A stretch of 64,000 nucleotides of DNA, taken from positions 1-64,000 of the forward strand of contig JAISOV010000048.1 in NCBI GenBank assembly GCA_031275405.1, written 5' to 3'. This document shows positions 6,821 through 53,132 of the stretch, piece by piece. Position 1 is the stretch's first letter; the number at the start of each line of letters is the position of its first letter. Position numbers and translations under genes: made by a program. A model generated the notes under the pieces. That model did not search any database, was not told the origin of the DNA, and saw only the letters and a program-made list of their open reading frames with translations. This stretch comes from Clostridium sp. (GTDB lineage Bacteria > Bacillota > Clostridia > Lachnospirales > Lachnospiraceae).

Positions 6821-6868
6821 TCCGCTCCTCGTAAAGAAAGACAAAAAAACGCAGTATGTGCTTATTCC

Positions 6869-7078: not shown

Positions 7079-7196
7079 CTTGTCCCACATGACTGCAGTT
7101 CTTTTGTGTATCGAACCCTTGACATATCGCAATAAAGAGGTCATTTTTTTATCGGCGAGGGAGCCTCCGCGCTTGTATCATCCTACGGACACGCCT

Positions 7197-7577: not shown

Positions 7578-7594
7578 GAATTTCCCCTTTCATA

Positions 7595-7650
7595 TGTCGA
7601 GTATTCGCCTTTACCGCGACTGTCGAAGTAATTTTATCATATCTGTCGAA
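7595..7650 (-). promoter_or_regulatory. Cluster of three 0A-like boxes upstream of the Spo0A-C gene
   Basis: TGTCGAG at 7595-7601, TGTCGAA at 7621-7627 and TGTCGAA at 7644-7650, written on the plus strand. The 0A consensus is TGTCGAA. They lie about 18-73 bp upstream of the start codon of the Spo0A-C gene, spaced 26 and 23 bp apart, covering the likely promoter. Confidence 0.65.
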
Positions 7651-7689
7651 AAATGAAAAGTGATTTTAATCGCGAAAAAGTATAAATTT

Positions 7690-8619: not shown

Positions 8620-8942
8620 TCCGTATCCCTCCTTGGCAGATCCGTCCTACGCGTATCCGGTTCTGCGCTTCCTGAATTGATTTCCGGCTTTTCCGCTATC
8701 TTATTTGGTTCCAGTATACTATTTCAGAACCTGACCCGCAAGGTTTTCTTGCGGCTGCTCAGCAAGAACAACCTTTTCTTTTGGATTGTCAGGCTTTCCA
8801 AAATTTTAGGTAGCTATCTGCGACAGATTCGTGTATAATGTTGATTAAAGTCAGTTTTTGTCCCTGGTCGCCGCGGTCTCTGTCCGGAAAGATCCGGAGT
8901 GAGCCGGCGCCCATGCTGAAACGGACAGAGGGGAGCATTTGC
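8620..8942. other. Divergent intergenic region with hairpin and promoter-like box
   Basis: Separates the minus-strand GT2 gene from the plus-strand PAP2 gene. It contains CCGCAAG-gtttt-CTTGCGG (8736-8754), a fragment CTGCTCAGCAAGAAC of the dispersed repeat family, and TATAAT at 8834-8839 that could be the -10 of the downstream gene, without a convincing -35. No gene seen. Confidence 0.45.
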
Positions 8943-9410
8943 ATGAATTTTCTTCACGAGCTTTTCAGCAACCGTATTCTGACGGCGGGAGTGGCCGGCT
9001 GGCTGGTCGCCCAGATTCTGAAGACGTGCGTCCACATGTTCCTGAACAGGGAATTTGTGGCCGAACGCCTGGTGGGAAGCGGGGGAATGCCCAGTTCCCA
9101 CTCTTCCACCGTATGCGCGCTGGCGACTTCCGTCGGCTACGAATACGGCGCGGGCGGATTTGAATTCGCGATCGCCCTCTTGTTTGCTCTGATCGTGATG
9201 TACGATGCGATGGGTGTCCGCCGGGAGACCGGCATTCAGGCCAGGCTGCTCAACGACATCATGAAAGTATTTGAGGACATGGGCCACAGCGATATTTCCG
9301 CCCATGACAAATTGAAAGAATTTGTCGGACATACTCCCCTACAGGTTCTGGCGGGCGCACTGCTGGGCATCCTCGTCGCCGTTTTCCTGTATGCCGGGCT
9401 TGGGCTTTGA
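8943..9410 (+). CDS. Divergent PAP2-family membrane protein (DUF212)
   Basis: 155 aa. The diagnostic run is GSGGMPSSHSSTVCALATSVG followed by YDAMGVRRETGIQARLLND and HTPLQVLAGALLG, characteristic of the divergent PAP2 (acid phosphatase/vanadium-dependent haloperoxidase-related) family; four membrane segments. Substrate unknown, possibly a polyprenyl or lipid phosphate. ATG at 8943 has GGGGAG upstream; the longer in-frame reading lacks this. Confidence 0.88.
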   Translation: MNFLHELFSNRILTAGVAGWLVAQILKTCVHMFLNREFVAERLVGSGGMPSSHSSTVCALATSVGYEYGAGGFEFAIALLFALIVMYDAMGVRRETGIQARLLNDIMKVFEDMGHSDISAHDKLKEFVGHTPLQVLAGALLGILVAVFLYAGLGL

Positions 9411-9502
9411 CCGGATCAGCGTCCGTGCGGCATTTTCGCTGTGCGGGTACGTCGATGCCGCTTGGAAATCAATGTCCGCACCGCGGACAGAAAGGAAGTT
9501 TT

Positions 9503-10711
9503 ATGAAGACACTAAAACCTATGTTTACCCGGTTATGTGACGGCCTGTCACGAAGAATCCGCGGCGCGGCATTCCAGACCGGACTGCTGATCGCCGTTTC
9601 CGTCATGCTGCTTGGCGCGTGTGCCCAAGAGGGGCTTCCGGATCCGATTACGGCGCCGCCGGAAACGATCCCTTCCGACACGGGGCAGGAGAACGGCGGC
9701 GACGCGCAGGGCAGCGGTACGCCCGAAGCGCAGGAGGAAGACGATACGCTTCCGCCCCGGGCGGGGATGCTCCGGAGCCGCCTGACCAATGAGTGGGTGG
9801 ACGCCGATGTGGCGAATACCCGGCCGATTGCCGTCATGACGCCCGTCGAAAAAGCCGCGATGCCCCACTACAGCCTCTCCGAGGCTTCCATCCTTTACGA
9901 AGCCAACGTAGAGGGGCGCTATACCCGTCTGCTGGCCATTTACGAAGATTGGCAAAATTTAGAAAAGATCGGGAATGTCCGGAGCCTGCGCCTTTATTAT
10001 GGGTTCTGGGCTTTGGAATGGGATGCGTTCCTCGTACATTTCGGCGGGCCTTTCTTTGTAGACGACCTGCTGAACCAGCCCACTACCCAGAATATCAACG
10101 GCAACAGCGGCACGGATACCGACGCCTTCTTTCGTACCAGCGACCGGAAAGCTCCTCACAACGCTTACGCTTCCGGCCAAGGCCTGCTCAAGGTTATCAA
10201 CCAGAAAGGATACAGCCTTTCTTACCGGGGCCTGGCGGACGAAGAGCACTACCGGTTCACTCCCAAAGCCGTGCCGAACACCTTAGAGCAGTATTCCAAT
10301 GCCGTGACCGCCCGGAATATCGATATGTCAAGCTGCTATCCTTTGACCAGATGCACCTTTGAATACCGTCCGGAGGACGGGCTTTATTACCGCTCGCAGC
10401 ACCTGTCCGGCTCCGAGGAAGGGCCCCACATAGACGCCGTGACCGGAAAACAGCTTGCTTTCAAGAACATCCTCGTGCAGTACACCAAATATGAGGATCT
10501 GGGCAAAGGCTACCTGGCGTTCCAGTGCCATGACACCACCCGGGACGGCTGGTATTTTACCAACGGCAAGGGGATCCATGTGAAGTGGAAAAAGACCTCC
10601 GATTACAGCGCGACGCGCTACTATGACGACAGCGGGAACGAGATCGTGCTGAACACGGGAAAGACCATGGTACTCATCGTAGAAGAAGGCGACTCCTTTG
10701 CATACGAATAA
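9503..10711 (+). CDS. DUF3048 lipoprotein (YerB-like), first copy
   Basis: 402 aa. N-terminal signal with lipobox LLGAC (Cys near residue 41), then an acidic, proline-rich linker and the DUF3048 domain: RPIAVMTPVEKAAMPHYSLSEASILYEANVEG, RLLAIYEDW and NVRSLRLYY. The conserved C-terminal domain follows (GWYFTNGKGIHVKWKKTSDYSATRYYDDSGNEIVLNTGKT). It should be anchored outside the cell. Function unknown; B. subtilis YerB is the reference. A paralogue is at 33816-34979. ATG at 9503 follows AAAGGAAG. Confidence 0.9.
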   Translation: MKTLKPMFTRLCDGLSRRIRGAAFQTGLLIAVSVMLLGACAQEGLPDPITAPPETIPSDTGQENGGDAQGSGTPEAQEEDDTLPPRAGMLRSRLTNEWVDADVANTRPIAVMTPVEKAAMPHYSLSEASILYEANVEGRYTRLLAIYEDWQNLEKIGNVRSLRLYYGFWALEWDAFLVHFGGPFFVDDLLNQPTTQNINGNSGTDTDAFFRTSDRKAPHNAYASGQGLLKVINQKGYSLSYRGLADEEHYRFTPKAVPNTLEQYSNAVTARNIDMSSCYPLTRCTFEYRPEDGLYYRSQHLSGSEEGPHIDAVTGKQLAFKNILVQYTKYEDLGKGYLAFQCHDTTRDGWYFTNGKGIHVKWKKTSDYSATRYYDDSGNEIVLNTGKTMVLIVEEGDSFAYE

Positions 10712-10736
10712 GGAGCAGCCACAGCACAGAAACCAG

Positions 10737-10788
10737 CCATCCCGGCGCGGGAACCTATTCGCAGGCTCCCGCGCCGGGATGGTTTTTT
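10737..10788 (+). terminator. Strong intrinsic terminator
   Basis: A perfect 16-bp stem (CCATCCCGGCGCGGGA with its complement) around a 14-nt loop, then TTTTTT. It ends the DUF3048 transcript and insulates the convergent leuA gene. Confidence 0.92.
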
Positions 10789-10803
10789 ACAGGCTATGTC
10801 ACG

Positions 10804-12483
10804 TCAGCTTCCAAGTCCCAGCCGGTTCACCGCCGAGAAGATCGCCCTCATAGCAGCCCTGGTAATGTCGGAGCTGACCCCGGCTCCATAAGTCACCCTC
10901 CCGCTGTCCGCGTCCAGCAGATGGACGTAGGCCGCCGCCTGGGAATTGGCGCCGCTCTGCAGGGCGTGTTCCACATAATCCAGTACCTTGATCCGCATCC
11001 CGAACGTTTCGGAAAGCCCTCGCTGCACCGCGTCGATCGGCCCGTTCCCTACCGCCTGGAAGGATTTTTCCGTTCCGTGATCCGTATAGACCACCAATAC
11101 CCTGGTAGCCAGGCTTTTTTCCGCTTCTTTGCCCAGATCCTCCACTTTGGTCAGCGTCCGGAAATGAAGCGGTTCCTTCCGGTTCAGGTACTCTTCACGG
11201 AACCGGTCCATGATCTGCGCGGGCGACACTTCTCCCTGCCGCTCGGAAATCTTCTGGATGACCTGGGCAAACTCTTTCTGCATGGCCTTGGGCAGCTTGA
11301 AGCCGAAATAAGTATCCATGATAAACGCCACCCCGCCTTTGCCGGACTGGGAATTGATCCGGACGACAGGTTCGTACTCCCTCCCGATGTCCGCCGGGTC
11401 GATGGGGAGATACGGCACTCTCCACACCTTGCCGCCCCGCTCCTTCATCGCCTTTACCCCTTTGTTGATGGCATCCTGATGGGAGCCGGAAAAAGCGGTG
11501 AACACCAGCTTCCCGGCATAAGGATGTCTTGGATGGACGGGAAGCTTGCAGCAGCGTTCATATATTTCTATCGTATCGTTTATCCGATCCAGATCCAGCT
11601 TAGGGTCGATTCCTTGGGAAAACAGATTGTAGGCGATATTCAGGATGTCCACGTTGCCCGTGCGCTCCCCGTTGCCGAACAGGGTTCCTTCCACCCGCTC
11701 CGCCCCCGCGAGCAGGGCAAGCTCCGCGCTCGCTACGCCCGTCCCTCGGTCGTTGTGGGGATGTACGCTGATGATCAGGCTTTCCCGGTGTTCCAGATGC
11801 CGGATCATCCACTCAATCTGATCCGCATACACGTTGGGCGTATTCATCTCCACTGTGGAAGGCAGGTTCAGGATCATCGGATCCTGCGCCGTCGCGCCCC
11901 AGGTACTCCGTACCGCGTCACAGACTTCCAGCGCGTAATCCAGTTCCGTCCCGGTAAAGCTTTCCGGCGAATACTCCAGCCGGATCCTGCCCGGGAACCG
12001 CTTCGCCCGTTCTTTCACCAGCTCCGTTCCCCGTACCGCGATCTGTGTGACCTGCTCTCTGTCCATCTGGAAGACCACGTCCCTCTGTAGGGCGGAGGTG
12101 GAGTTGTAGATATGCACGATCGCCTGCTTGCAGCCCTCGATCGCTTCAAACGTCCGGCCGATCAGATCTTCCCGGCACTGCGTCAGCACCTGTACCCAGA
12201 CATCGTCCGGAATCAGCTTCCGGTCGATGAGCTGGCGCAGGAAATCAAATTCGATCTGGCTGGCGGCGGGGAAGCCGACCTCGATCTCCCGGAAACCCAG
12301 CTTGATCAGATACTGGAACATCTCGATTTTTTCTTCCACCACCATCGGGTCGATCAAGGCCTGATTCCCGTCGCGCAGATCCACGCTGCACCAGACAGGC
12401 GCCTTTGTGATCTCCAGCCCCGGCCATTTTCTTTCCGGATAGTCCACCACCGGATTTTTACGATACCTCTGATAATGTAACAT
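10804..12483 (-). CDS. leuA: 2-isopropylmalate synthase, long form
   Basis: 559 aa. Condenses acetyl-CoA with 2-oxoisovalerate in leucine synthesis. Seen: SVDLRDGNQALIDPM (catalytic Arg and metal Asp), SVHPHNDRGTGVASAELAL (metal-binding HxH) and a C-terminal LeuA allosteric dimer domain with GPIDAVQRGLSETFG. The N-terminus MLHYQRYRKNPVVDYPERKWPG identifies the actinobacterial/fungal-like long form. ATG at 12483 follows AAAGGAG. No T-box or leucine leader peptide fits into the 70 bp between it and the upstream terminator. Confidence 0.96.
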   Translation of the reverse strand: MLHYQRYRKNPVVDYPERKWPGLEITKAPVWCSVDLRDGNQALIDPMVVEEKIEMFQYLIKLGFREIEVGFPAASQIEFDFLRQLIDRKLIPDDVWVQVLTQCREDLIGRTFEAIEGCKQAIVHIYNSTSALQRDVVFQMDREQVTQIAVRGTELVKERAKRFPGRIRLEYSPESFTGTELDYALEVCDAVRSTWGATAQDPMILNLPSTVEMNTPNVYADQIEWMIRHLEHRESLIISVHPHNDRGTGVASAELALLAGAERVEGTLFGNGERTGNVDILNIAYNLFSQGIDPKLDLDRINDTIEIYERCCKLPVHPRHPYAGKLVFTAFSGSHQDAINKGVKAMKERGGKVWRVPYLPIDPADIGREYEPVVRINSQSGKGGVAFIMDTYFGFKLPKAMQKEFAQVIQKISERQGEVSPAQIMDRFREEYLNRKEPLHFRTLTKVEDLGKEAEKSLATRVLVVYTDHGTEKSFQAVGNGPIDAVQRGLSETFGMRIKVLDYVEHALQSGANSQAAAYVHLLDADSGRVTYGAGVSSDITRAAMRAIFSAVNRLGLGS

Positions 12484-12554
12484 GCCGCCCGCTCCTTTCC
12501 CGTTCTTGACTTTCTTCCGCTGGGACGAGGGAACTGTCCTTGTCAAACAGTCAC

Positions 12555-12582
12555 AAAAAATCAGCTCATCCAGTAGATGAGC
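12555..12582 (-). terminator. Intrinsic terminator of ptsH
   Basis: On the minus strand GCTCATC-tactg-GATGAGC, then TGATTTTTT. It lies between ptsH and leuA, so these two are probably transcribed separately. Confidence 0.8.
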
Positions 12583-12597
12583 CGCCGCTTCGTCTTT

Positions 12598-12861
12598 TTA
12601 TTCGCCAAGGCCGCTTTCCACTGCCGCGACCAGAGTCTGTAAGGCAAGCTCCTCATCCTCTCCGTCGCAGACAAACTCAATCTCGTCGCCGCACTTTACG
12701 CAGGCGCCCAGGACACTCAGAACGCTTTTTGCATTCGCGGTATTATCCCGAAAAGTAAAGGTAATCAATGATTTGAACTGCATCGCTTCTTTGCATAGGA
12801 TACCTGCCGGTCTCAGATGTAATCCCGTGGGATTATTGATTGTTACCTTCTGGTTCACCAT
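12598..12861 (-). CDS. ptsH: HPr-family phosphocarrier protein
   Basis: 87 aa, standard HPr size. NNPTGLHLRPAG places the phosphorylatable His at position 15, and AKSVLSVLG places the regulatory Ser at 46, so both phosphotransfer and HPr-kinase sites are present. It is not accompanied by ptsI or other PTS genes. ATG at 12861 has GGAGGG nine bases upstream. It could be a true HPr or a Crh-like regulator; retention of His15 argues for HPr. Confidence 0.93.
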   Translation of the reverse strand: MVNQKVTINNPTGLHLRPAGILCKEAMQFKSLITFTFRDNTANAKSVLSVLGACVKCGDEIEFVCDGEDEELALQTLVAAVESGLGE

Positions 12862-13074
12862 ACTCTGTCTTCCCTCCGCTTTCTCCCGCCGTACAAGCCG
12901 AACCGCCCGCCATCCTACTTCCGTCCGGTATTTCCCGATCATCCGTATGTACCTTTCCGGCGGGTTCGTTTCCCGATCTGTTTTTCATCATTCTCCGCTC
13001 TATCCCTCTTAAACTATATCATGACCGCGAGGCAATCTCAACCTCTTTTCTCGAAAACTTCTCAGAAGTCACTG

Positions 13075-41770: not shown

Positions 41771-43516
41771 TCAAGCCTGATTACTCGAAACCAGCCCATA
41801 AACATAATTGCTGAAATCCATCAAAGTATCCATTGTCAGGAATTTGTTGATATCCAGACTACAGTTCATGGTCTCCTCAATTTCACACATAAAAGAAGTC
41901 AGCTCTATGGAATCAAAATTCAGTTTCTCAGAAAATAAATCGTTTGATGAAACGTAGGCCTTAAAATATAACCTCTCCATCAGTATTGTGCGTAATTTAT
42001 TATTAATTTCCATCAAGCAAGCATGTTGAACAATTTTTGACCGATCTATTTTATTGATTGAAGTTTTAGGCAGTTGGACATCGCCAATTATAATATGCCT
42101 AATTTTTTTATAAATAGGTTGTCCATCATTGTATCTATCTATATTTTTCAACAGCTCATCACGATAAGATATTACATCCTCGCAATATAGGTAAAGTGAG
42201 AGCGATCTATCATCAACAGAATATATCGCACATTCCATCACCCCAGGAAATCTACACACTGCTTCTTCGATTTCTTCCGGTATGATTTTTTTCCCTGACG
42301 ATAGCACTATCACGTTTTTTATCCTTCCGGTAATATAAAGCAATCCATTGTGGCCTATGTAGCCGATATCACCGGTTCGGAACCATCCATCCGCATAAGC
42401 ATTTTCTGTAAGCTCGGCTTCTTTATAGTAACCCAGCATAAGATTTTCTCCACGTATGCATATCTCCCCATTTATGATATTAAGCTCATGGCATTTCGCA
42501 GGACTCCCTACATTTTCAAAGTCAACTTTAGCCGTTTTGGAGTTGTTGACTGATATTAACGGAGCTGCTTCTGACATCCCATAGCCTCGTATAACTTCTA
42601 TGCCTATATCGTGATATCCCTGTAGAATTTGTATGTTATTTTTTGCTCCGCCACAGATAAAACGAAATAAATTAGTTCCGAAATACTCCTGTACATTGCT
42701 GATGACTCCATTGGCTAATTTACTTTGACAGCGATTGTATAAATAATTTAGTATAGATGGAACCACGCAAATATAATGAGGGTTATACATAAGCAGTTCT
42801 TTTTCAATATAATTGGAACCGCCGGATATATATGTAGGGTTACCTATATAAGCTCCAAGTAATATAACACACACGAAAGCATAAATGTGAAATAATGGCA
42901 ATACAAGCAGCTGGGTAATGCCGTGGGACTTTTCATCACTGAATACTTCATTTGTAAATGCCATCAGACAGTTAAGCAATGCGCGCCCAGAAAGCATAAC
43001 TTTTTTCTTACTGCCTTGAGATGTGCCTGATGTAGTAATGATAATTCTCATCCCATCAAAAGAATAATCATCAAAAATAAAATCTGTTTCTTCAGCATGG
43101 ACTTCACAACATTTGTTTATATTGACAAATTTCAGCGGATTGATATGTTTTTTTATTTTTTCTATTTTATTCTGATAAAAATGATCATAAAGTATCAGAT
43201 CAATGCCTGTTTTATCAAAAAAATTTAAAAGCCATTCGTCACTGCTGTCACCGTCCACTAAAAACAATCTGCCTGCTCCACACAAACATGCCGTCATGAC
43301 CAGGATGTACTCATAGCTGTTTTTAGCAACAACAGCAATCATACCGCCGTCAGAAATACGATAAATATAATTAGACATTTTTACCATGTCAGCGTAAAAC
43401 CTTCCAAATGATATTTTTTTCATCTCCTGCCCATTGACATATTGAAAAGCTTCCATTTCGCCAAATTTTGTTTGGGACTGAAAAAACAATTCTCTGAAAG
43501 TAGTCGGCTCACTCAT
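41771..43516 (-). CDS. AMP-forming acyl/amino-acid ligase fused to a carrier-protein domain
   Basis: 581 aa. An adenylation domain of the ANL superfamily spans about residues 1-490: IIITTSGTSQGSKKK (phosphate loop), IRGYGMSEAAPL, DGWFRTGDIGYIG and GRIKNVIVLSSGKKIIPEEIE (hinge). The last about 80 residues form a carrier domain with DLFSEKLNFDSIELTSFM, where the Ser after FD is the phosphopantetheine site. It should activate a carboxylic acid with ATP and load it on its own carrier arm. ATG at 43516 follows GGGAG and overlaps the ATPase gene, the last step of the peptide operon. Low GC. Confidence 0.85.
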   Translation of the reverse strand: MSEPTTFRELFFQSQTKFGEMEAFQYVNGQEMKKISFGRFYADMVKMSNYIYRISDGGMIAVVAKNSYEYILVMTACLCGAGRLFLVDGDSSDEWLLNFFDKTGIDLILYDHFYQNKIEKIKKHINPLKFVNINKCCEVHAEETDFIFDDYSFDGMRIIITTSGTSQGSKKKVMLSGRALLNCLMAFTNEVFSDEKSHGITQLLVLPLFHIYAFVCVILLGAYIGNPTYISGGSNYIEKELLMYNPHYICVVPSILNYLYNRCQSKLANGVISNVQEYFGTNLFRFICGGAKNNIQILQGYHDIGIEVIRGYGMSEAAPLISVNNSKTAKVDFENVGSPAKCHELNIINGEICIRGENLMLGYYKEAELTENAYADGWFRTGDIGYIGHNGLLYITGRIKNVIVLSSGKKIIPEEIEEAVCRFPGVMECAIYSVDDRSLSLYLYCEDVISYRDELLKNIDRYNDGQPIYKKIRHIIIGDVQLPKTSINKIDRSKIVQHACLMEINNKLRTILMERLYFKAYVSSNDLFSEKLNFDSIELTSFMCEIEETMNCSLDINKFLTMDTLMDFSNYVYGLVSSNQA

Positions 43517-44189
43517 CTCTGCTCCCATCTGCCATTCTCATGCTTGCATCCGCATAGCTTTTCACAATATCATCATGTGAAACAAGAATAGCGGTCATAT
43601 GATTCTCCAGTATCAGCTTACGTAATTGCTCCAGGAACAGCACACTGTTTTCTTGATCCAGGCTCGCCGTGGGTTCGTCGCACAGAACGATTTTAGGCTT
43701 GTCAATGATGGCACGGATAATCGCAATTCTCTGCTGCTCGCCGCCGGAAAGGCTTTTCAGTTCCCTCTCCTGAATCTGCCCCAGACCCATGACCTCCAGA
43801 TAATAGCTGATACGTTCGTCAGTCTCTTTGGTTACTTTTTTGTTTTTAGCGTATAGTGGCACACAGATATTCTGCTTTACGTTCATAAAAGAAAACAGGT
43901 TCAATCCTTGAAAGATCATACTGATATGATGCAGCCTGAAAGCATCTTTCTCCTTTGACGATAATTGATAAACCGACGTGCCAAAGACAGAAACCTCCCC
44001 GGAATCGATTCTCGACAATAATCCGGCTATCGCATAAAGCAGGGTCGTCTTGCCGGAACCGGAAGATCCCGAAATCGCTGTAATCTTATTTTCTTCAAAG
44101 GAACAGGATATTTCATTTAATAAATTCCGCTTATTACATCCATCTTTCACTGAATACAGCACCTTATTTAACGCTACTGCCACTGACAT
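43509..44189 (-). CDS. ABC transporter ATP-binding protein, MacB/LolD type
   Basis: 226 aa. Walker A ISGSSGSGKTTLLYAIAGLL, Q-loop SMIFQGLNLFSFM, signature ELKSLSGGEQQRIAIIRAI, Walker B IVLCDEPTASLD and H-loop LVSHD. It is in the MacB/LolD group, which pairs with FtsX-type permeases such as the gene just upstream. ATG at 44189 follows AAGGAGG. Probable peptide export or immunity. Confidence 0.92.
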   Translation of the reverse strand: MSVAVALNKVLYSVKDGCNKRNLLNEISCSFEENKITAISGSSGSGKTTLLYAIAGLLSRIDSGEVSVFGTSVYQLSSKEKDAFRLHHISMIFQGLNLFSFMNVKQNICVPLYAKNKKVTKETDERISYYLEVMGLGQIQERELKSLSGGEQQRIAIIRAIIDKPKIVLCDEPTASLDQENSVLFLEQLRKLILENHMTAILVSHDDIVKSYADASMRMADGSRDE

Positions 44190-44214
44190 AACGATACAAT
44201 CCTCCTTCATAAAA

Positions 44215-46092
44215 TCAGTCATTCGCCATGTTACGGAGAAAACCAACGATCTGCGTGTGCGTCGCCCGTATGCAGCCAATGAAAATCAGCACGGGTAATG
44301 TTAGCAAGAGAACAGTCTCCGTAACCACCACAGGTATCGGGTATGTGATGCCCTCCGGATAATAATACGGAGACATCAGAATAGCGCAGGCTACCGTTGA
44401 AAGGACACCTGCCAGCGGAATGCCGATGATCAACGCAAAAATTACAGTCTGCAGAAAGTGAACGATAAAAATGCCATTTGCCGTGCCACCTGTTAAGCCC
44501 ATCGCGCACAGCTTGATATAATCAGCTTTCTTCTCACTGGAGATAAAAAACACGTAATTCAGCAGCATGATCAAAGCACAGACAAAAGTAAGGTTTGCCG
44601 CCAGTTCAATCAACTCTGTACTTTTCACCACCTCATCGTAACTGGCTCTTTCCAGTTCCTCTTTAGACTGTATGACGGCATGAGACGAAAAAGCCGAGGT
44701 CTCAAAACCGGTTAACGAAAAAGCAATATTGGCATACCCTTTCAGTCCAAGGACTGCTTCCAGAAAAGCATTGCTGACAAGGCAGCTGACCTCATTGAAA
44801 TGATTGAGATAACAGCCTGCCACGATTTCAAAGTTGATACTGACGCCATTGATAGAGGCTGTAAACGTTCTGCCAATATCTTCACGGGTAATCAGGTTTT
44901 CTGGAAAAATAACACCATTCCAGTCCTTATCATCAATTCTTGACAGCAGCTCCTCTATGCCGAAACCTGAGAGTGTATCGTTTAGATGTATCGTTTCATA
45001 TGGTTGTTTCAGAAATTCCGAGTTTATCCCTTGCGCCCAGATATTCCCTGCCGTGGTGGAACCCGCTAAAAATTTCAGCATATATAAATCATCGGACTTG
45101 AGTTGTTCTTCTGTCAGCTGAAATGGCTCATCAAATAAGGCGAGTGATTCATAATGAACAGTCTCTTTCGACACCCGTCCAGCCGCCTGCCTGGTGGACA
45201 GATAAAGAGACTGTAGTCCGATGGTAAGCATAACACTAAAGACTATCATCTTGGCTAATGTTTTCGTTCTTTTATAACTGGATTCGCTTAATGCCTGTGA
45301 TAAACGGAAGATACCGGAACCTGACAGCTTTCCCGCTAAGATTTCCACATAATTGAAAACATAAAAAAGGAACTCCTGTAAAAAGAAATAAGCCACAATA
45401 AGCAGTAATTGTATGGATTGGATAAAAAGAGGATCCATCTTGGCTCTGCTGACAAAAAAAACGAACAGTAAAATAACCACTCCAACAGTTGTTTTACCGA
45501 TGCTTAGCCTGGATTTAGAATCGACCCACGTATCAGCCCTCAGCCATTCTATGGGAGATAAAATATTGGCCTTTTGAAATGTTCTGGTAACGGAAAACAG
45601 AACTACAAAAAAGTGAATCGCGGCTGCTCCGATGAGACTGGCCAAGGTCAGATGTCCGTCTGGAAAGCCCAACTGCCGTGCGATCATCAGGTATAGTACT
45701 TCACCAAAAACAAGCCCCGCAGGAATCGCAATGACCTGCATCCTGAACATCTCTGCCAGGTAAATCCTGTAGAGCATACGCTTGCTGATACCTGCTAAAC
45801 GTATATTGATATGAAACGTGCTGCGCCCATCATATAAGGAATGAAACAGCATACGGATGACCCACTGAAAAAAAAGAATGACAATAATGCATATCGATAT
45901 CATCAAAAATATAATTGCCATAGACTGCTCATAATCTCTGGAACTCAATGACGCATTGATGATGCTGTTGTTTAGGCTGGTAGAAATCATTAAAAATATA
46001 AAAATAACAATGATATTTACCATATAGGCTAGCAGTAAAAAGAACTGCTTTCTCTTTTCACTTTTATACAGGCACCTTGCTAATTCCTTCAT
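44215..46092 (-). CDS. FtsX-type ABC transporter permease
   Basis: About 625 aa, around eight to ten hydrophobic segments in two groups. N-terminal MKELARCLYKSEKRKQFFLLLAYMVNIIVIFIF, a large central extracytoplasmic region, and the C-terminal block IMLLNYVFFISSEKKADYIKLCAMGLTGGT typical of BceB/FtsX-family permeases linked to peptide antibiotic export or resistance. ATG at 46092 comes after GGGGGGAGATCAAAGG. It partners the ATPase 26 bp downstream. Confidence 0.85.
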   Translation of the reverse strand: MKELARCLYKSEKRKQFFLLLAYMVNIIVIFIFLMISTSLNNSIINASLSSRDYEQSMAIIFLMISICIIVILFFQWVIRMLFHSLYDGRSTFHINIRLAGISKRMLYRIYLAEMFRMQVIAIPAGLVFGEVLYLMIARQLGFPDGHLTLASLIGAAAIHFFVVLFSVTRTFQKANILSPIEWLRADTWVDSKSRLSIGKTTVGVVILLFVFFVSRAKMDPLFIQSIQLLLIVAYFFLQEFLFYVFNYVEILAGKLSGSGIFRLSQALSESSYKRTKTLAKMIVFSVMLTIGLQSLYLSTRQAAGRVSKETVHYESLALFDEPFQLTEEQLKSDDLYMLKFLAGSTTAGNIWAQGINSEFLKQPYETIHLNDTLSGFGIEELLSRIDDKDWNGVIFPENLITREDIGRTFTASINGVSINFEIVAGCYLNHFNEVSCLVSNAFLEAVLGLKGYANIAFSLTGFETSAFSSHAVIQSKEELERASYDEVVKSTELIELAANLTFVCALIMLLNYVFFISSEKKADYIKLCAMGLTGGTANGIFIVHFLQTVIFALIIGIPLAGVLSTVACAILMSPYYYPEGITYPIPVVVTETVLLLTLPVLIFIGCIRATHTQIVGFLRNMAND

Positions 46093-46294
46093 CCTTTGAT
46101 CTCCCCCCTCCTTGATCAAGTAGTACTGCCAATGATTTCTGCTGTTCTTAAGCCAAAAATCATTGACAGTATTTATAGCGCAATAACTTTGACAGTACAC
46201 ATAATGCCCCTGCGGATCATTTTTCTGTAGGACACATCTGTTATTTTTCAAACAGTTGGCATTGAGTTTTTAGTGATTTTTGAAACTCATCGGC
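46093..46294. promoter_or_regulatory. Gap between precursor gene and permease with repeated TTGACAGTA motif
   Basis: Contains TTGACAGTA at 46163-46171 and 46189-46197. A third, inverted copy is at 46588-46596 on the other side of the precursor genes. CAATGATTT and its complement form an imperfect hairpin around 46132-46168. Possible regulator sites or processing signals separating precursor from transporter expression. Confidence 0.35.
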
Positions 46295-46396
46295 TTAACC
46301 TTTGCAGCAAAATATTGTACCCATGCTACTAGGAGTCACAATTTCTTCAATTTCTTCAAAAGTTTCATAAACTTGTACATCTTCCTGTTCTTTCAT
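46295..46396 (-). CDS. Putative RiPP precursor peptide 1 (33 aa)
   Basis: Reads MKEQEDVQVYETFEEIEEIV then TPSSMGTIFCCKG. ATG follows AAAGGAGG at ideal spacing. The acidic leader segment FEEIEEIVTP and a C-terminal core with GTI-x-CC are shared with the 36-aa peptide 49 bp upstream. The probable core is SSMGTIFCCKG. It lies between the modification genes and the exporter, where a precursor is expected. No known RiPP family name is assigned. Confidence 0.8.
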   Translation of the reverse strand: MKEQEDVQVYETFEEIEEIVTPSSMGTIFCCKG

Positions 46397-46445
46397 GTCG
46401 AAAACCTCCTTTCTGTTTACTATGCTGCTGATTGTGGCGGTAATA

Positions 46446-46556
46446 TTACGCGTAGCAACAACCTATAGTACCCCATCCGCCGGGTGTTACGATTTCTTCG
46501 ATTTCTTCAAATAAATCGAAAATCATAACTTCTTCATCCTGCAATTTGTTTTCCAT
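46446..46556 (-). CDS. Putative RiPP precursor peptide 2 (36 aa)
   Basis: Reads MENKLQDEEVMIFDLFEEIE then EIVTPGGWGTIGCCYA. ATG follows AAAGGAGG seven bases upstream. Leader and core arrangement match precursor 1: ten identical residues FEEIEEIVTP, then GGWGTIGCCYA against SSMGTIFCCKG. The variable residues are in the core, the pattern of a duplicated precursor gene. Encoded directly downstream of the M50 and radical SAM genes. Confidence 0.82.
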   Translation of the reverse strand: MENKLQDEEVMIFDLFEEIEEIVTPGGWGTIGCCYA

Positions 46557-46628
46557 AAGCATCCCTCCTTTCTTTACGGTATTCGTATACTGTCAAAAAG
46601 TTATCCGTAGGGCTGATATAAGATCTAA

Positions 46629-47708
46629 TCACTGAAGCTTCAGATTGTATGTTTTGTAAATAAACCGCACAATCAACAAGACAATCAGAACTATACTTAT
46701 TGTAAACGTAATGTCTGGTGGAATGTTAAAATAAGATGTATTCATCTTTATGCTTTCATATATTCCACAGAAAGATAACGTCCACAAAACCAACAACACA
46801 GCACCATAAGCGGCTTCCTTTTTCCCCGGAGCCTGGCGGTGCAAGACTTTTTTTATTGCCGAATACCCTAAAAGTCTAAGGTTATAGATCCCCAGCAGTG
46901 TGGTTATGATATAATATCCGTCTGTAGCACCAAAAACCGATAAATTAACAAATATCATCGATGTATTGCCAATAATCCATACATCAATAAACGTATTATA
47001 AACACCACACCGCATCAAGACAATCCCTATAACAATTCCTGCCATATGTCCTGCCGCTCCCCCCAGAAGTATGCTGACCTTTTTCAAAGCAGTATTTAAG
47101 TTTAATCCTCGGTAGGTCAGAAAAACAGTAGGATAAGTAATAAAAAAACCTATCTGAAGGCTGGCAACTGGAACGCCCAATAGTGACGCCGCTATGTAGT
47201 GACCAGCTTCATGAAAAAGGTATACAGAAACAGGTACAATAAACACACATGCTAAAACCATAGGCATCGACAAAGAGTGTATATCAAATTGACGATTTAA
47301 AAAGCTCCTGCTATATAAAACAAACCACATCATACCAATAATTGATACGAAATATAACAGGTTTTCAAGGTAATTATTTTTATTCGCCTTTTGCTTAATA
47401 CTGAATTCTTTTTTATATATTATTCTCGCATATGAGTTTATTTCATTAAATGATCCTTTCGGTTTTTTACTGGTTTTAAAAAAACCTTTTGCATCCATCT
47501 GTTTTGCAATTTTTCGATAATCATCCTTCAACATATCAATATCATCCACAATACCTGAATCTATCATTGTTACAAATTCTTTAAAAATGCTTGCCATATT
47601 CTTTTTTACATGAATATAGGTATTGGAATCACGGTCACCAGCTAATAATTTGGAACCAGTGAGGGTAATATTTTTAACACAAACAAATGATTCTCGCAAT
47701 TCTAACAT
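46629..47708 (-). CDS. M50-family membrane metalloprotease with PqqD-like N-terminal domain
   Basis: About 360 aa. Residues 1-78 resemble a PqqD-type peptide-recognition wing (YIHVKKNMASIFKEFVTMID then KGFF). After that come about eight membrane segments with HEAGH near 166-170 and FGATDGYYII as the second metal motif. This layout fits an intramembrane-type protease that removes a leader peptide or releases a product. ATG at 47708 follows AGAGGTGA, only 4 bp after the radical SAM gene. Confidence 0.78.
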   Translation of the reverse strand: MLELRESFVCVKNITLTGSKLLAGDRDSNTYIHVKKNMASIFKEFVTMIDSGIVDDIDMLKDDYRKIAKQMDAKGFFKTSKKPKGSFNEINSYARIIYKKEFSIKQKANKNNYLENLLYFVSIIGMMWFVLYSRSFLNRQFDIHSLSMPMVLACVFIVPVSVYLFHEAGHYIAASLLGVPVASLQIGFFITYPTVFLTYRGLNLNTALKKVSILLGGAAGHMAGIVIGIVLMRCGVYNTFIDVWIIGNTSMIFVNLSVFGATDGYYIITTLLGIYNLRLLGYSAIKKVLHRQAPGKKEAAYGAVLLVLWTLSFCGIYESIKMNTSYFNIPPDITFTISIVLIVLLIVRFIYKTYNLKLQ

Positions 47709-47712
47709 TCTA

Positions 47713-49008
47713 TCACCTCTGCTGATGCCGTCTGCTGATTTTGATAATGGATTCATTAATCCTGACAGAATGCTCTTGATATTGGGTCGCCATAAAACAG
47801 ATAACCTTTTTTAAAAACAATTTCATAACAAGGCACCGTTCAGGTTGCAGTTTGAAATTATTTTCCAATGTCATACCTTTGCAAAATACGCCACATACAT
47901 TCAGAGCAGGACAATTTTGACATTCTTCAAGATTATGCCGTTCTAATGATTTAATCTGCTGAAAGCACTGATTTGCTTCCGCAGCCTGCAAATAATATTC
48001 GCTTAAATCAACACTTCTGCTACGTTCGTTGGCAATAACATGGCATGGATAGACTTGCAGATCCGGTGTAATAGTTATATTGTAACCAGCACCGCAGCTC
48101 GTCGATTGTATTCGCTTGGCTACTAAAAGAATAGTGGCAATAAAAATATTAGGCATAACGGTTGTTTCCTGTGTAATCAGGCAGTTCAGGCAGTGATCTG
48201 CAAGCTCATTACACATTATCTCAAAATTACGCCGTATCTTATCTTCATTTAAATCTATCTTAGTGTAAGAATCTTCTGTTGTAGCAGCTATCATCTCATA
48301 CCATAAAATTGGCAGCGATTCAAATTCCTTTGCCCATCTTGTAATATCGCCTGCCTGGTAGTTCTCTAAATGTACACGACTAAAAGTAAATTGCAATGCT
48401 CGTCTTTGACTTGGCATATCTGATAGAAGGTGTAATGTATTCTTAACCGCATCATATACGCTTGGAATACCACGTCCATTTCTGAACCGATCATTCAAGC
48501 ACTTGGGGCCATCAAGACTTGTGCCGAAGCCGATCTCATATTTATACATAAACTCCTTAATTTCATCATTCATAATTGTTCCGTTGCTGCTAATCGAAAG
48601 GTAAGGAATGTTTGCAGGACTGTAATTACTGTGCAGATATTCCACAAATCTCCTGATCTCTTGAAAACCAAGCAGAGGCTCACCGCCAAAAAAGCCTATC
48701 GTTTTTATTTCACTATGGATCTTAAGCAACAGTTCAAACGCTTTTATATAATTTTCAGCTGTCAGAGTATTCGTTTCCGAAACTCCATGATAGGTTCCTT
48801 GTCCGGCATAACAGTATGAACATTTCAGGTTACAGGCAGTCGAAGAAAGAAAGACCAAGTCTAATGCCATTCTATTCTTTTCTTTTGGCAGTCGTGCAGA
48901 AGCGTAATCCTTTTGCTTTTCAAGATAGGAATGATAGCGATCTTTCCCGGTAATAATATAAAGTTTTTCTGCATCAAACCAGATATTCGTGTCCATTTGA
49001 TGTATCAT
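47713..49008 (-). CDS. Radical SAM/SPASM peptide-modifying protein
   Basis: 431 aa. CNLKCSYC (Cys 59, 63, 66) binds the SAM iron-sulfur cluster, then GFFGGEPLLG. The SPASM region has SCGAGYNITITPDLQVYPCH and CQNCPALNVCGVFCKG, giving auxiliary clusters. Enzymes of this type form thioether or C-C links in RiPPs. ATG at 49008 overlaps the upstream stop (ATGA) and follows AAAGGGTGG. The Cys-Cys cores of the two small peptides are plausible substrates. Confidence 0.92.
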   Translation of the reverse strand: MIHQMDTNIWFDAEKLYIITGKDRYHSYLEKQKDYASARLPKEKNRMALDLVFLSSTACNLKCSYCYAGQGTYHGVSETNTLTAENYIKAFELLLKIHSEIKTIGFFGGEPLLGFQEIRRFVEYLHSNYSPANIPYLSISSNGTIMNDEIKEFMYKYEIGFGTSLDGPKCLNDRFRNGRGIPSVYDAVKNTLHLLSDMPSQRRALQFTFSRVHLENYQAGDITRWAKEFESLPILWYEMIAATTEDSYTKIDLNEDKIRRNFEIMCNELADHCLNCLITQETTVMPNIFIATILLVAKRIQSTSCGAGYNITITPDLQVYPCHVIANERSRSVDLSEYYLQAAEANQCFQQIKSLERHNLEECQNCPALNVCGVFCKGMTLENNFKLQPERCLVMKLFLKKVICFMATQYQEHSVRINESIIKISRRHQQR

Positions 49009-50000
49009 TGGTACCACCCTTTCTTTAACTTATCTTCCAGATCATTCATAGAAGATATTTCCTTTTCTGATATATCCGCCATAATCTCTGAAATTTGACG
49101 AAACAAAGCCTGATCAAAGCATTTCCTGCTATTCTGATAAAAGCGAATTGACCGTCCTACTTCTCTCCATCCATTGCCGCAGATTGCCAGATTCTGAACA
49201 CACATATCCAGATCCACGTTTTTTGCTATAAAGCTGTTTTTCAAAGCAGCAGCAAAATCCTGTCTGTAAAAACCTATGGAACCGCTATTCATTGATGCTG
49301 CAAAAATATACTGTTTCAAATAATCTTTCTTCGTGAAAACTTGTCCAACATCATTGGCATAGTCCTGTAATTGTTCTAAAAAAAAAGAGTAAAATTGAGG
49401 GCCGCTGGAACATTGCGTGTTTTCGTAAACTCTGTTTTTATCCACCAGAAAGCGACTAACTGTTTCGTTTAAGAGAAAGAGAATTTCCTCTTCCTTTAAC
49501 CTCAAAGTTTGTCTGGCCAGTTTTACAAGATAAACCGGTTGCTCAAGGGGTAGCGTATACAGGGTTGAATAATAATTGAAATCTTCCCAGGTTATTTCAA
49601 AAACTTTTTTTTCCTCAATACCTTCACCAGCCACTTCTAAAATAATTATATTGTCATCTATATGTCTTATTGCAAAGGCTGAGTAAAAAGGAAACAGATG
49701 CCTGACATGAATCTTAGGTTTGCTATTCCTTTCAAGGACGGATTTTGGCATCAAGACTATATAAGACCCAAGATCCTGCTCATCCTTTTTTAATTGGTGG
49801 ATGGACGACAAGCTGTATCTTATTTTTAACCGGTCAAGAAAAAATAAGGAATCCAGAAATCCTCTGCCGTCATTGATCCGAATCAGCTCCTTATCATAAC
49901 TGATCGTTCTAAAATTATTTGCCAGTCCATTCGATAGAATTATCATATTGATGTTTATGCCATCAACTTTTGTGTGAATCATATGAAAGAAGCAATCCAT
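49005..50000 (-). CDS. BtrH-like putative acyltransferase of the peptide cluster
   Basis: 331 aa, soluble. The N-terminal half looks like the BtrH N-terminal (papain-like) domain: an early NGLANNFRTIS, LGSYIVLMPKSVLE, HLFPFYSAFAIRHIDDNIIILEV and ITWEDFNYYSTLY. The C-terminal half has GSIGFYRQDFAAALKNSF and GNGWREVGRSI, as in the DUF4872 partner domain. BtrH moves an acyl group from a carrier protein to an amine. With the ligase-carrier gene in the same operon it could acylate the peptide. Homology is moderate by eye. First gene of the operon. Confidence 0.5.
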   Translation of the reverse strand: MDCFFHMIHTKVDGININMIILSNGLANNFRTISYDKELIRINDGRGFLDSLFFLDRLKIRYSLSSIHQLKKDEQDLGSYIVLMPKSVLERNSKPKIHVRHLFPFYSAFAIRHIDDNIIILEVAGEGIEEKKVFEITWEDFNYYSTLYTLPLEQPVYLVKLARQTLRLKEEEILFLLNETVSRFLVDKNRVYENTQCSSGPQFYSFFLEQLQDYANDVGQVFTKKDYLKQYIFAASMNSGSIGFYRQDFAAALKNSFIAKNVDLDMCVQNLAICGNGWREVGRSIRFYQNSRKCFDQALFRQISEIMADISEKEISSMNDLEDKLKKGWYQ

Positions 50001-50123: not shown

Positions 50124-50639
50124 GGAAATAAATGGAAGAAGTCAGAATCATAAAATCCAGAAATCGACCTGTTTGTGCCCGTCTGCAAGGTCAAAGTTTC
50201 GCTTGAGAAAATATGGAGGGCATACGCTTTTTGCATAAGCCATGGCAGACGGCATACGCTGCCCATGTTTCGATCAGCGCTTTGCATCAGATGTTCCATA
50301 CCGCCATATGTTACTTCACACAAAACGCTGGGGAAATAGGGGGGACAGGAAATATATACTATATATTAGCTGTTGTCCGGTTGGCCGCACCGAGCGGCAA
50401 TATGCTGTTCACGTCTCCAGCTTGCCGTTCACGTCAAAGTCTTGACGTGAGCAATTTGATGTTCGATAATAGCAGACAAGAAGCGACTGATCTCCGATCG
50501 GGACAGCCCTTAACGAAAACCGGAAAAGAACGTGCGGAAGCGCAAAGCAAACCAGGAAACCAAGGTCTTTTCATAACGTTCCGTGTCCCGGATGAAAGGA
50601 AAAGAACGGCTGTCATCATGAAACGTGAGGTGCCTGTCC
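50124..50639. other. Intergenic region upstream of the second ABC pair
   Basis: Holds the weaker part of the promoter duplication (to about 50230), an AT palindrome near 50350, and a 9-bp hairpin TCACGTCAA-agtc-TTGACGTGA (50429-50450). Short open frames on both strands have no convincing ribosome site or family. GC rises from the island level to the chromosomal level near 50400. Confidence 0.45.
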
Positions 50640-51302
50640 ATGCCCAGAAAAGAATTAAAGATGGATATTGGTTATCAGAACCATATTTTATATGAAGACG
50701 TCAGAATTGCCGTTCCCGAAAATGGCATAGTGTCTATCCTCGGCGATAACGGCAGCGGAAAATCAACCTTGTATAAGACTTTACTGGGGATCATCCCTCC
50801 TGTGAAGGGTGAAGTACCCAAAGACCTGGCAGGGCAGATCGCCGTCGTATCCGATTACGTGCATCTCCCGGAAGAAGTCACGGTACGGGATATTCTTTGC
50901 CTGCTCGGGCCTGAGAAAGTAAGCGCTGCCGAAAAAAACCATTCTGATCTTCATTCCTATATCATGCAGTATCAGACGCAAGGAATCGCCACTTTAAGCT
51001 CCGGCCAGAGAAGGATCGTGGAGATCTACGCGGTATTGGCTTCCGGAAAAAAAGTCATTGTCTTGGATGAGGCGACGAATTCCCTTGATGTCAGCAACCG
51101 GCAGCTGTTTTTAACCTATGTAAAAAAACTGTCCGAGGGAAACATCCTCTTTTTCCATACGTCCCACGAAATCCACGATGCTGTTTTCCTGGGCGGCACA
51201 GTATACGCGCTGTTTCCGTCTGCCCGCGCTGTCCGGCAGTTTACGGGGGAATTGACGGGCGACAGCCTGTATCGTTTCCTAGGATATGGGGTGAAGGCAT
51301 GA
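50640..51302 (+). CDS. ABC transporter ATP-binding protein (lantibiotic-immunity-like)
   Basis: 220 aa, short. Walker A SILGDNGSGKSTLYKTLLG, signature IATLSSGQRRIVEIYAVL, Walker B VIVLDEATNSLD, H-loop FFHTSHE. The first part is MPRKELKMDIGYQNHILYEDV. ATG at 50640 follows GAGGTG. It overlaps the permease gene by 4 bp. Divergent from the peptide operon and convergent with the regulator, so probably self-protection or export (inference). Confidence 0.88.
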   Translation: MPRKELKMDIGYQNHILYEDVRIAVPENGIVSILGDNGSGKSTLYKTLLGIIPPVKGEVPKDLAGQIAVVSDYVHLPEEVTVRDILCLLGPEKVSAAEKNHSDLHSYIMQYQTQGIATLSSGQRRIVEIYAVLASGKKVIVLDEATNSLDVSNRQLFLTYVKKLSEGNILFFHTSHEIHDAVFLGGTVYALFPSARAVRQFTGELTGDSLYRFLGYGVKA

Positions 51303-52057
51303 GAGAACTCTTTCTTTTCCAAATGAAGCGATTAAAAAACAGAAAAATCCTGCTCCTGCTGCCCATTCTCTTGCTGGTGATCGGGGCTATGGGGCTTGTA
51401 CTGGGGATCCTGTTTTATGGACAGGACGCCTCGCCTAAAATGTGGCTCGTAAGCGTTTACAATTCCTATACGCAGTTTACCTTTCTTTTTATGATCTATG
51501 TTTTTGTATCGACGTTTTCAGATGATTTCGCAAAAGGGATCTATGCCTTTATGAAGCAGGTCGGATACCCGTTGAACCAATGTATCTTTACAAAGGCGAT
51601 CGCAATGTATCTGGTATCGTTCCTGGGAACCAATTTGTTTCTTATTATGACGAATATCATGAGCGGCAATACCGATGATCCGTATTTGCTCATGATCCTG
51701 GTGTCCGTGAATCTGAGCCTGATATTTATCATCCTGTTCGCAATCGTGCTTTCGCTGCTCGTCAAGAAAACCCTGGCCGCCACGCTGACCGGCTACGGCC
51801 TGTTCCTGCTGATGGACGTCCTGAATTTTGTCGGTTTCGGTCTTACGAATCCTTCCGACGGAAACAGCATATCATCCGTTGCCATCCGTGTCTTGGCCGG
51901 CCAGCCTTTAGACCATTATTCGCTGAGCCGCATGAATCTTGACTTTGAAAAGTATGGTTTCCTTTACGCAACCATACCCGTCCTGGCGTGGGTGCTTGTG
52001 CTGCTGCTGGCAGTGATGTTTCTTGTAAAAAAGGAGACGGACAGAAATGAAATATAA
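51299..52057 (+). CDS. ABC-2 type permease
   Basis: 252 aa, six hydrophobic segments, begins MRELFLFQMKRLKNRKILLLLPILLLVIG. Central FVSTFSDDFAKGIYAFMKQVGYPLNQCIFTKAIAMYLVSF is like bacteriocin-immunity ABC permeases. ATGA overlap with the ATPase gene. It ends at 52057 inside the reading frame of a tiny ORF that may be what is left of a third gene. Confidence 0.8.
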   Translation: MRELFLFQMKRLKNRKILLLLPILLLVIGAMGLVLGILFYGQDASPKMWLVSVYNSYTQFTFLFMIYVFVSTFSDDFAKGIYAFMKQVGYPLNQCIFTKAIAMYLVSFLGTNLFLIMTNIMSGNTDDPYLLMILVSVNLSLIFIILFAIVLSLLVKKTLAATLTGYGLFLLMDVLNFVGFGLTNPSDGNSISSVAIRVLAGQPLDHYSLSRMNLDFEKYGFLYATIPVLAWVLVLLLAVMFLVKKETDRNEI

Positions 52058-52082
52058 GACGCTTGGGTTTACCCTTCCATAA
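52047..52082 (+). pseudogene. Possible 5' remnant of a third gene of the ABC operon
   Basis: ATG with AAGGAG eight bases upstream, overlapping the permease stop, but it reads only MKYKTLGFTLP before TAA. The ideal translation signals suggest a former downstream gene (another permease subunit?) lost by deletion. It could also be chance. Confidence 0.35.
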
Positions 52083-52098
52083 GAAAGGCGTCAAATAT

Positions 52099-52833
52099 TT
52101 ATATCACCTTCTCCCAGGCATCATTAGAATATACTTCCAAAAGACGATTGATATATTTCCGGCCGACCGGCAGGCTCAGCACCTCATTATTTTTTATCAG
52201 ACTTACCGAATACGGATAGGTTTTTTTAACGCTTTCGATTTTTTCGATAGAAATGATGTACGACCTGTGGACTTGAATAAAACAGTCTGTATCCAACATC
52301 GTCTGTACTCTGCCGAGTGTTCCCCGAAAACTTACCTCGCCTTGCCGGGTATGGCACGTCACCGTATGGTCTGTTATTTCCACATACACGAGGTCGTCTT
52401 GACGGACATTGATCACGCGTCCCTCCGTCGTGATCCTGATATTGTTCCGCTTTCCCTGCCGTCTGGCGAGCCTGTCCAGAAACAGACCGAGTCTCCCATC
52501 ATCAACGGGCTTCTGTAGAAACCCCATTGCTTCTACCAGATAGCCATCAGCGGCCCGACGGGAATCGGCCGCCACAAATATGATCGGTATCGAACTGCTT
52601 ATCTTCCTGATTTTTTTCGCCAAAGCGATTCCATCCATGACTTCCTCGCCCAGAAAAACATCCAGGAATACCACATCCATATCCTCATGAACTGCCATAT
52701 AATCAAGTAACGCTTGAGGCGATGCAAAGTAATAATCCAAGACGCTGATTTTTCTGGAAGACGCCCATTTGGTTACTGATGTTTTCAATGTTTCGCTCCA
52801 ATATCGTTCCCTTTCACAGACCGCAACCTTCAT
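52099..52833 (-). CDS. LytTR-family response regulator
   Basis: 244 aa. Receiver domain with the phosphoacceptor Asp near 58 (VVFLDVFLGEE) and FLQKP (Lys). LytTR DNA-binding domain with LVYVEITDHTVTCHT, GTLGRVQTMLDTDCFIQVHRSYIISIEKIESV and LSLPVGRKYINRLLEVY. ATG at 52833 follows AAGGTGG. No histidine kinase is next to it. Its promoter region is a near-copy of that of the peptide operon, so it probably controls both. Confidence 0.93.
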   Translation of the reverse strand: MKVAVCERERYWSETLKTSVTKWASSRKISVLDYYFASPQALLDYMAVHEDMDVVFLDVFLGEEVMDGIALAKKIRKISSSIPIIFVAADSRRAADGYLVEAMGFLQKPVDDGRLGLFLDRLARRQGKRNNIRITTEGRVINVRQDDLVYVEITDHTVTCHTRQGEVSFRGTLGRVQTMLDTDCFIQVHRSYIISIEKIESVKKTYPYSVSLIKNNEVLSLPVGRKYINRLLEVYSNDAWEKVI

Positions 52834-52873
52834 TTTCCCATACCACCTTATCGCTTTCTGGACTATAGCTGAT

Positions 52874-52949
52874 ATGATAAGGCACTTTAAGGATTTCTTA
52901 CAAGTGTTTGGGGATAAATGGTCAAATGATGTCGAATTTTTGATAATCA
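52874..52949 (-). promoter_or_regulatory. Promoter region of the LytTR regulator, duplicate of the peptide-operon promoter
   Basis: TTGTAA, 18 bp, TATCAT on the minus strand and the upstream ATTTGACCATTTATCCCCAAA. Matches 50048-50123 at 65/76; a looser match extends to about 53065. Confidence 0.7.
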
Positions 52950-53132
52950 TTCCGGCAATCCACTGAAACGAGCCAACAGAATAACATCTAGGAACCGGCC
53001 TGTTCATGTCTATTTGCAGGGCCAAAGCTTCGCTGGATGGAATGTGGAGAGCGTATGCCTTTTCTCCAGAAGTCTCTCCGCAGCTTTCCATAAGTTTTTG
53101 ACATCCATTTCCAGATCCATGCGCCTGTAATC

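Follow-up and report, generated by a model that had tools for sequence, protein, structure and literature searches.

We analysed a window of 64,000 nucleotides from the Clostridium sp. contig JAISOV010000048.1 and found in it a compact minus-strand operon of eight genes (41771-50000) that very likely directs the production of a ribosomally synthesized and post-translationally modified peptide (RiPP). In the order of transcription, it encodes a BtrH-like protein, a radical S-adenosylmethionine (rSAM) enzyme, an M50 protease, precursor peptides 1 and 2, an FtsX permease, an ATPase, and a ligase fused to a carrier domain. A preliminary description had placed eight open reading frames (ORFs) here; all were found in place, and each family assignment was checked. 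Judged by sequence, the gene set with its precursors is a real and rare, small and previously unnamed RiPP family of the rSAM type. That the locus is of RiPP type and belongs to no named family, as first described, is borne out by the lack of any model match to the precursors, by rSAM scores under the curated cutoffs, and by the recurrence of the set. The same description had proposed an acylated rSAM RiPP, of which the RiPP part and the homology to the BtrH family stand, whereas the acyl transfer is plausible and unproven. As a whole, a RiPP operon of a small unnamed family with a proposed acyl step is the best explanation, to which we give about an even chance.

Two precursor genes with a shared leader and a Cys-Cys core

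The two precursor genes encode peptides of 33-36 residues, MENKLQDEEVMIFDLFEEIEEIVTPGGWGTIGCCYA (46446-46556) and MKEQEDVQVYETFEEIEEIVTPSSMGTIFCCKG (46295-46396), which have the gapless motif EEIVTPxxxGTIxCC in common. Back-translated, the motif is found twice in the window, whereas shuffles give an expectation of 0.00. The differences between the two genes are distributed over the codon positions as 11/8/21, with the third position changing most, and strong Shine-Dalgarno sites precede both. The ORF of precursor 1 is listed to 46562, and its start is probably 46556. These motif statistics, the codon-position pattern, the ribosome-binding sites, and homologous pairs elsewhere bear out the two tiny precursor-like genes of the preliminary description; chance small ORFs are ruled out by the first of these and by the recurrent pairs in a second genome.

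Each peptide has an acidic leader ending in (F)EEIEE[I/V]VT, and an 11-residue core of the form xxxGTIxCCxx follows after TP. As is general for RiPPs, small genes with a conserved leader and a variable core stand beside modifying, protease, and transport genes, and this arrangement is kept across genomes. The leader would be recognized at the EEIEE-VT motif. In every precursor from the window and from the two related clusters described below (L024 and L117), the CC pair lies two residues short of the C-terminus. M50 proteases of pearlin pathways, TglG and TmoG, release C-terminal modified residues (PMC10885120), and the peptide could likewise be a scaffold, with a small modified C-terminal piece around CC being set free by the M50 enzyme. 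We regard such pearlin-like logic as highly improbable, as the operon has no peptide-aminoacyl-tRNA-ligase (PEARL) gene and the conserved G-T-I before CC suggests that the whole core matters.

Related clusters in a second genome and in the same genome

A relaxed form of the precursor motif was scanned over 84,980 species genomes, yielding four matches. One of them, Clostridiales bacterium RGIG2731 from goat omasum, is an unrelated genome and carries two copies 271 bp apart. The other three (L016-L018) are isolated, without any cluster gene, and were taken as chance. The RGIG2731 cluster (L024) holds all eight genes, including two precursors ending in VTPAVFGTIACCWG and VTPAIFGTIGCCIV. Its proteins share 52% (ATPase), 43% (rSAM), 34% (M50), 30% (ligase-carrier), 29% (FtsX), and 26% (BtrH-like) identity with those of the window; the ligase gene precedes the transporter in L024 and follows it in the window. 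Co-occurrence of the gene set with the small ORFs in another genome, proposed earlier as a check, was found here, with the small ORFs in the same place in the cluster.

A gene set lacking the small ORFs, which the preliminary description would have counted against itself, was encountered only as a copy in genome G725 (L089). This 7.9-kb contig of 19% GC carries a kinase, an AgrB-like gene, the BtrH-like gene, and the rSAM, M50, FtsX, and ATPase genes. Its rSAM gene has one frameshift, the M50 gene is cut after the N-domain, and the contig bears no precursors or ligase, defects that we take as signs of a decayed cluster and not of a functional precursor-free set.

A related-locus search with the window rSAM protein alone returned nothing, and the rSAM profile gave no additional match among 188 genomes from the order of genome G588. 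Across the searched class, the best non-orthologous rSAM match came from the window's own genome, on contig C59. The sister cluster there (L117, G000:C59:26000-44000, positions 5904-12891) comprises a precursor, an rSAM enzyme, a fusion protein of 1181 residues, an ATPase, and a protein of 362 residues (P0020). Its precursor, MEENRNNEELTVVSFDDLETVEEIVTGAASGVAVCCIG, aligns without gaps with the window precursors and reduces the motif to EEIVT-x4-G-x3-CC. The fusion combines PqqD-like, M50, and two FtsX domains. P0020 matched the N-domain of the BtrH family at E 1.9e-5 (best of 60 shuffles 0.039), and its C-terminal part matched the family of the window BtrH-like protein at E 0.0038 (best shuffle 0.034). 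The gene content of L117 implies that the common core consists of the precursor, rSAM, M50, FtsX/ATPase, and BtrH-like genes, and that the ligase-carrier gene occurs only in a sub-type with GTI in the core. Matched by no NCBIfam or Pfam model, the precursors make up a new small family of gut and rumen Clostridia with the motif EEIVT-x4-G-x3-CC, and standard gene callers can easily overlook them.

The surroundings of these clusters bear on the role of the product. Directly upstream of L024 lie a GHKL kinase and a LytTR regulator, the kinase and AgrB-like gene of L089 are likewise upstream, and the window has a LytTR regulator at 52099-53091. The product could thus act in quorum sensing and not as an antibiotic. 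We consider this improbable, however: a BceB-like transporter of its own is what a toxic product would call for, the window operon has no cognate receptor kinase inside it, and bacteriocins, too, are commonly under agr-type control.

The rSAM enzyme and its relatives

The rSAM/SPASM peptide maturase (47713-49017; Pfam Radical_SAM, 44 bits) carries the motif CX3CX2C at C62/C66/C69, and the seven-Cys SPASM pattern (C308/C325/C366/C369/C375/C379/C395) is conserved with the L024 ortholog. It is closest to the PapB/SCIFF/QhpD maturases, with rSAM protein 5wgg as the nearest solved structure, and falls far under every curated NCBIfam cutoff. The nearest NCBIfam model, PapB, gave it 125.6 bits, and the other rSAM enzymes compared gave 131.8 and 153.9 bits, all under the cutoff of 340. 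Relatives of the enzyme form Cys thioether cross-links. Thioether-type chemistry is probable here, and the enzyme would most likely join a core residue to one of the two adjacent cysteines or to both.

Ranthipeptide and sactipeptide systems (PapB, SCIFF ScfB, CteB, QhpD) likewise employ rSAM enzymes with SPASM domains on Cys-containing precursors. They differ from the present cluster in that the window precursors have no CX3D/E or six-Cys motifs, having instead an adjacent CC near the C-terminus, and in that BtrH-like and ligase-carrier genes are present in addition. The clostridial CcpM/CLI_3235 system (TIGR04068) also has an rSAM peptide maturase and is annotated with an acyl-carrier-related protein, so that an rSAM enzyme combined with a carrier in a peptide system may have a precedent; we know of no BtrH-like gene there. 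By its score of 85.5 bits against a cutoff of 500, the window enzyme is not a CcpM, and the precursors have no match in that system.

Matches to the rSAM enzyme on plasmids belong to different systems and were rejected as relatives of this cluster. A protein scan of viral contigs returned distant rSAM relatives only, and the precursor pattern had no match among them. On a conjugative plasmid of Anaerococcus prevotii (L013, 7461-13454), a Cys-rich ORF of 50 residues, an rSAM gene, an ATP-binding cassette (ABC) ATPase, and a permease directly follow a class III lanthipeptide cluster.

Protease and transporter

The third gene encodes a membrane M50-type metalloprotease (46629-47708) with HEAGH and DG motifs and a conserved N-terminal domain of ~110 residues. 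The ORF opens at 47756, and the protein probably starts at 47708. Pfam M50 matched the window protein (P0006) at E 0.003 and its L024 ortholog (P0012) at E 5.4e-7, and the HEAGH and downstream DG motifs are kept between the two. The preliminary description had assigned it to M50 and given it a PqqD-like domain. The M50 part stands, but in direct comparison the N-domain matched PqqD at E 0.06, no better than controls, and the direct assignment was not supported. The colinear PqqD-M50 protein of sister cluster L117 matched at E 1.5e-4, and through it we infer that the window N-domain is PqqD-like. Thirteen more loci of the family that carry PqqD had no precursor of the EEIVT-x4-G-x3-CC kind and no BtrH-like gene. 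M50 proteases such as EpeP, which acts on epipeptides, and TglG, which acts on pearlins, are known to process RiPPs (PMC10885120). The window enzyme would remove the leader near VT(P), perhaps holding it through the N-domain. Epipeptide loci (EpeX, EpeE/EpeP, and an ABC transporter) resemble the operon in that a small precursor is accompanied by an rSAM enzyme, an intramembrane M50 protease, and an ABC transporter (PMC10885120), and differ from it in the precursor, the cysteine pair, and the acyl-type genes.

The transporter consists of an FtsX-type permease (44215-46092) and an ABC ATPase (43509-44189; Pfam ABC_tran, 110 bits). The permease ORF opens at TTG 46251, and a Shine-Dalgarno site indicates that translation very probably starts at ATG 46092 instead. 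Hydropathy of the permease (P0005) and its ortholog (P0016) predicts about 10 transmembrane segments (TM) with a loop of ~200 residues between TM7 and TM8, which we take to be the BceB topology. Of the FtsX/MacB exporter described earlier, the FtsX permease and the ATPase stand, whereas MacB was rejected, since its 4-TM topology does not match. BceAB-type transporters share the 10-TM FtsX permease with a large TM7-TM8 loop and an ATPase; unlike them, the window pair has no adjoining BceRS. The pair would export the product or protect the producer, and immunity may be as likely a role as export.

A BtrH-like protein and a ligase-carrier protein point to possible acylation

The first gene encodes a protein of 331 residues (49005-50000; P0008) with a putative papain-like N-terminal half and a DUF4872-like C-terminal half. 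Pfam BtrH_N did not match it. DUF4872 gave E 0.12 and 12.5 bits for P0008 and E 0.018 and 15.2 bits for the L024 ortholog (P0010), against a gathering score of 28. When P0008 was aligned by hhalign with eight BtrH-family proteins, the match reached E 8e-4 and was colinear over 260 columns; controls gave at best 0.1 (60 column shuffles), 0.37 (reversed alignment), and 0.51 (an unrelated operon protein). The invariant Cys column of the BtrH family corresponds to C3 of the window protein, in the nucleophile column, and is kept in P0008, P0010, the L089 protein, and P0020; in the joint alignment it is followed by GR, G-T/S-G, and F/Y-R motifs. The profile-profile comparison and the conserved Cys identify the protein as a divergent BtrH-family homolog, in agreement with the preliminary description. 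Searches of genome samples for the BtrH-like protein (250 genomes in the family, 344 in the order, 291 in the class) found it in one only, and tblastn of plasmids with the BtrH-like proteins gave no match.

The last gene encodes an adenosine monophosphate (AMP)-forming acyl/aryl ligase fused to a carrier domain (41771-43528; AMP-binding, 113 bits). The phosphopantetheine carrier domain (PF00550, residues 512-576; 41801-41995) scored 20.9 bits against a PP-binding cutoff of 20.8, with Ser540 (codon about 41909-41911) as the predicted attachment site. Both domains of the L024 ortholog (P0015) pass Pfam (AMP-binding 132 bits, PP-binding 22.9 bits), the two full proteins match each other at 248 bits and 30% identity, and the attachment Ser is aligned in P0015. 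The solved enzymes closest to the ligase are 4-coumarate, oxalate, and succinylbenzoate coenzyme A (CoA) ligases and an acyl-acyl carrier protein synthetase, and LPLFHIY at the substrate-pocket stretch, the PKT...K motifs, and the C-terminal catalytic Lys are kept. Taken together, the kind of the closest enzymes, the LPLFHIY stretch, and the catalytic Lys suggest that the substrate is not an amino acid but an aryl or acyl acid.

BtrH has a papain-like fold and transfers acyl groups in dependence on a carrier protein (PMC10318531). The butirosin genes for BtrH, BtrI, and BtrJ resemble those of the window in encoding a ligase, a carrier, and a BtrH-family transferase together. They differ in that the acceptor there is an aminoglycoside, the window ligase looks like one of the acyl/aryl type and is fused to its carrier, and the window BtrH-like protein is very divergent. 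In the mechanism that we propose, the ligase of the GTI sub-type would load its own carrier domain with an activated carboxylic acid. The BtrH-like protein, predicted to be papain-like, would probably pass this acid on to the peptide, in the simplest case to the N-terminal amine exposed by the protease. The new N-terminus would be the best place for an acyl cap because Thr and the cysteines are the only conserved nucleophiles in the GTI-type core. The data show the gene set, the precursor family, its conservation in another genome, and the homologies; the cross-link, the cleavage, the direction of transport, and the acyl transfer are steps that we infer. Acyl transfer is plausible in view of the ligase-carrier fusion in both intact clusters, the active-site stretch resembling acyl/aryl-CoA ligases, and the retained nucleophile Cys. 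Acylation of the peptide is possible, short of an even chance. It is a more tentative proposal still that the rSAM enzyme cross-links the CC core and a BtrH-type transferase, fed by a self-loading ligase-carrier, acylates the same peptide, which would be the first carrier-dependent non-GNAT acylation of a RiPP.

Several observations weigh against this proposal. Neither Lys nor Ser is conserved in the core to offer an obvious acceptor for the acyl group, and only two intact copies of the cluster are known. The invariant His of the BtrH family (GGH motif) is not conserved, P0008 and P0010 sharing H98/H97 nearby, and the AlphaFold model of the BtrH-like protein, built from two sequences only, has a confidence (pLDDT) of 43.5, too low for the structural comparison with BtrH that the preliminary description had named. 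Finally, no ligase or carrier accompanies the BtrH-like protein of sister cluster L117; this weakens the case for acylation, as the function of such a protein may not depend on the ligase. Since L117 retains the precursor, rSAM, and M50 genes, the BtrH-like protein could instead be a papain-type peptidase or cyclase, serving a second leader trim or amide formation in a RiPP pathway without an acylated product, and the ligase-carrier could be an unrelated add-on or make a separate small molecule. The closeness of BtrH_N to C39 peptidases (PMC10318531) and the absence of the canonical His also favour this alternative. We nevertheless consider it rather unlikely, since in each of the two intact GTI-type clusters the same genes flank or adjoin the ligase-carrier fusion, and the DUF4872-like C-terminal half belongs to the BtrH acyltransferase family, not to peptidases.

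Acylation might also serve self-protection or another partner, with the acyl group blocking the peptide in the cell and being removed on export, much as the acyl side chain protects butirosin. BtrH chemistry in butirosin is described as a protection from resistance mechanisms (PMC10318531), and the BceB-like permease topology suggests an immunity module. The cluster encodes no acyl-removing enzyme of the BtrG type, however, and this role appears quite improbable.

The acylated RiPPs that we found (lipolanthines, goadvionins, lipoavitides, selidamides, and nostolysamides) all rely on GNAT acyltransferases, and the majority are lanthipeptides (PMC13060382). The product proposed here would resemble them in joining an acyl group to a ribosomal peptide, but Pfam finds no GNAT or lanthionine synthetase among the eight genes of the operon. 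In the part of the literature covered, we found no rSAM RiPP combined with BtrH, which is weak evidence. If the acyl step is real, ribosomal peptides could be capped with lipids or acids without a GNAT, which would be of use in engineering. The two natural versions of the cluster, with and without the ligase-carrier, make the question of acylation directly testable.

Other BtrH-domain genes were observed elsewhere. In the window's own genome, an ordinary BtrH/DUF4872-family protein (L091, G000:C23, 1486-2526) adjoins a recombinase-like gene. On Acinetobacter, Rhodococcus, and Mycobacterium plasmids, BtrH-domain genes (L093, 4962-5933; L096, 3989-5053; L094, 5001-6059; L098, 3857-4954) are accompanied by varying sets of a P450, a flavin adenine dinucleotide (FAD) oxidoreductase, a transglutaminase-like protein, a PaaI thioesterase, and an acyl-CoA ligase.

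Composition and genomic setting

The region 41771-50000 has a GC content of 38.4%, compared with 56.4% and 53.6% in its flanks, and looks like an acquired island; repeats were sought at its borders and none were found. One flank contains tilS and genes for a phosphoribosyltransferase and an FtsH-type protease; sugar-uptake genes, an ABC ATPase, and a LytTR response regulator make up the other. These last two lie immediately upstream of the operon (50625-53091), together with a membrane protein without a Pfam match. Regulators (LytTR/GHKL or AgrB-like) are found upstream of the L024 and L089 clusters as well.

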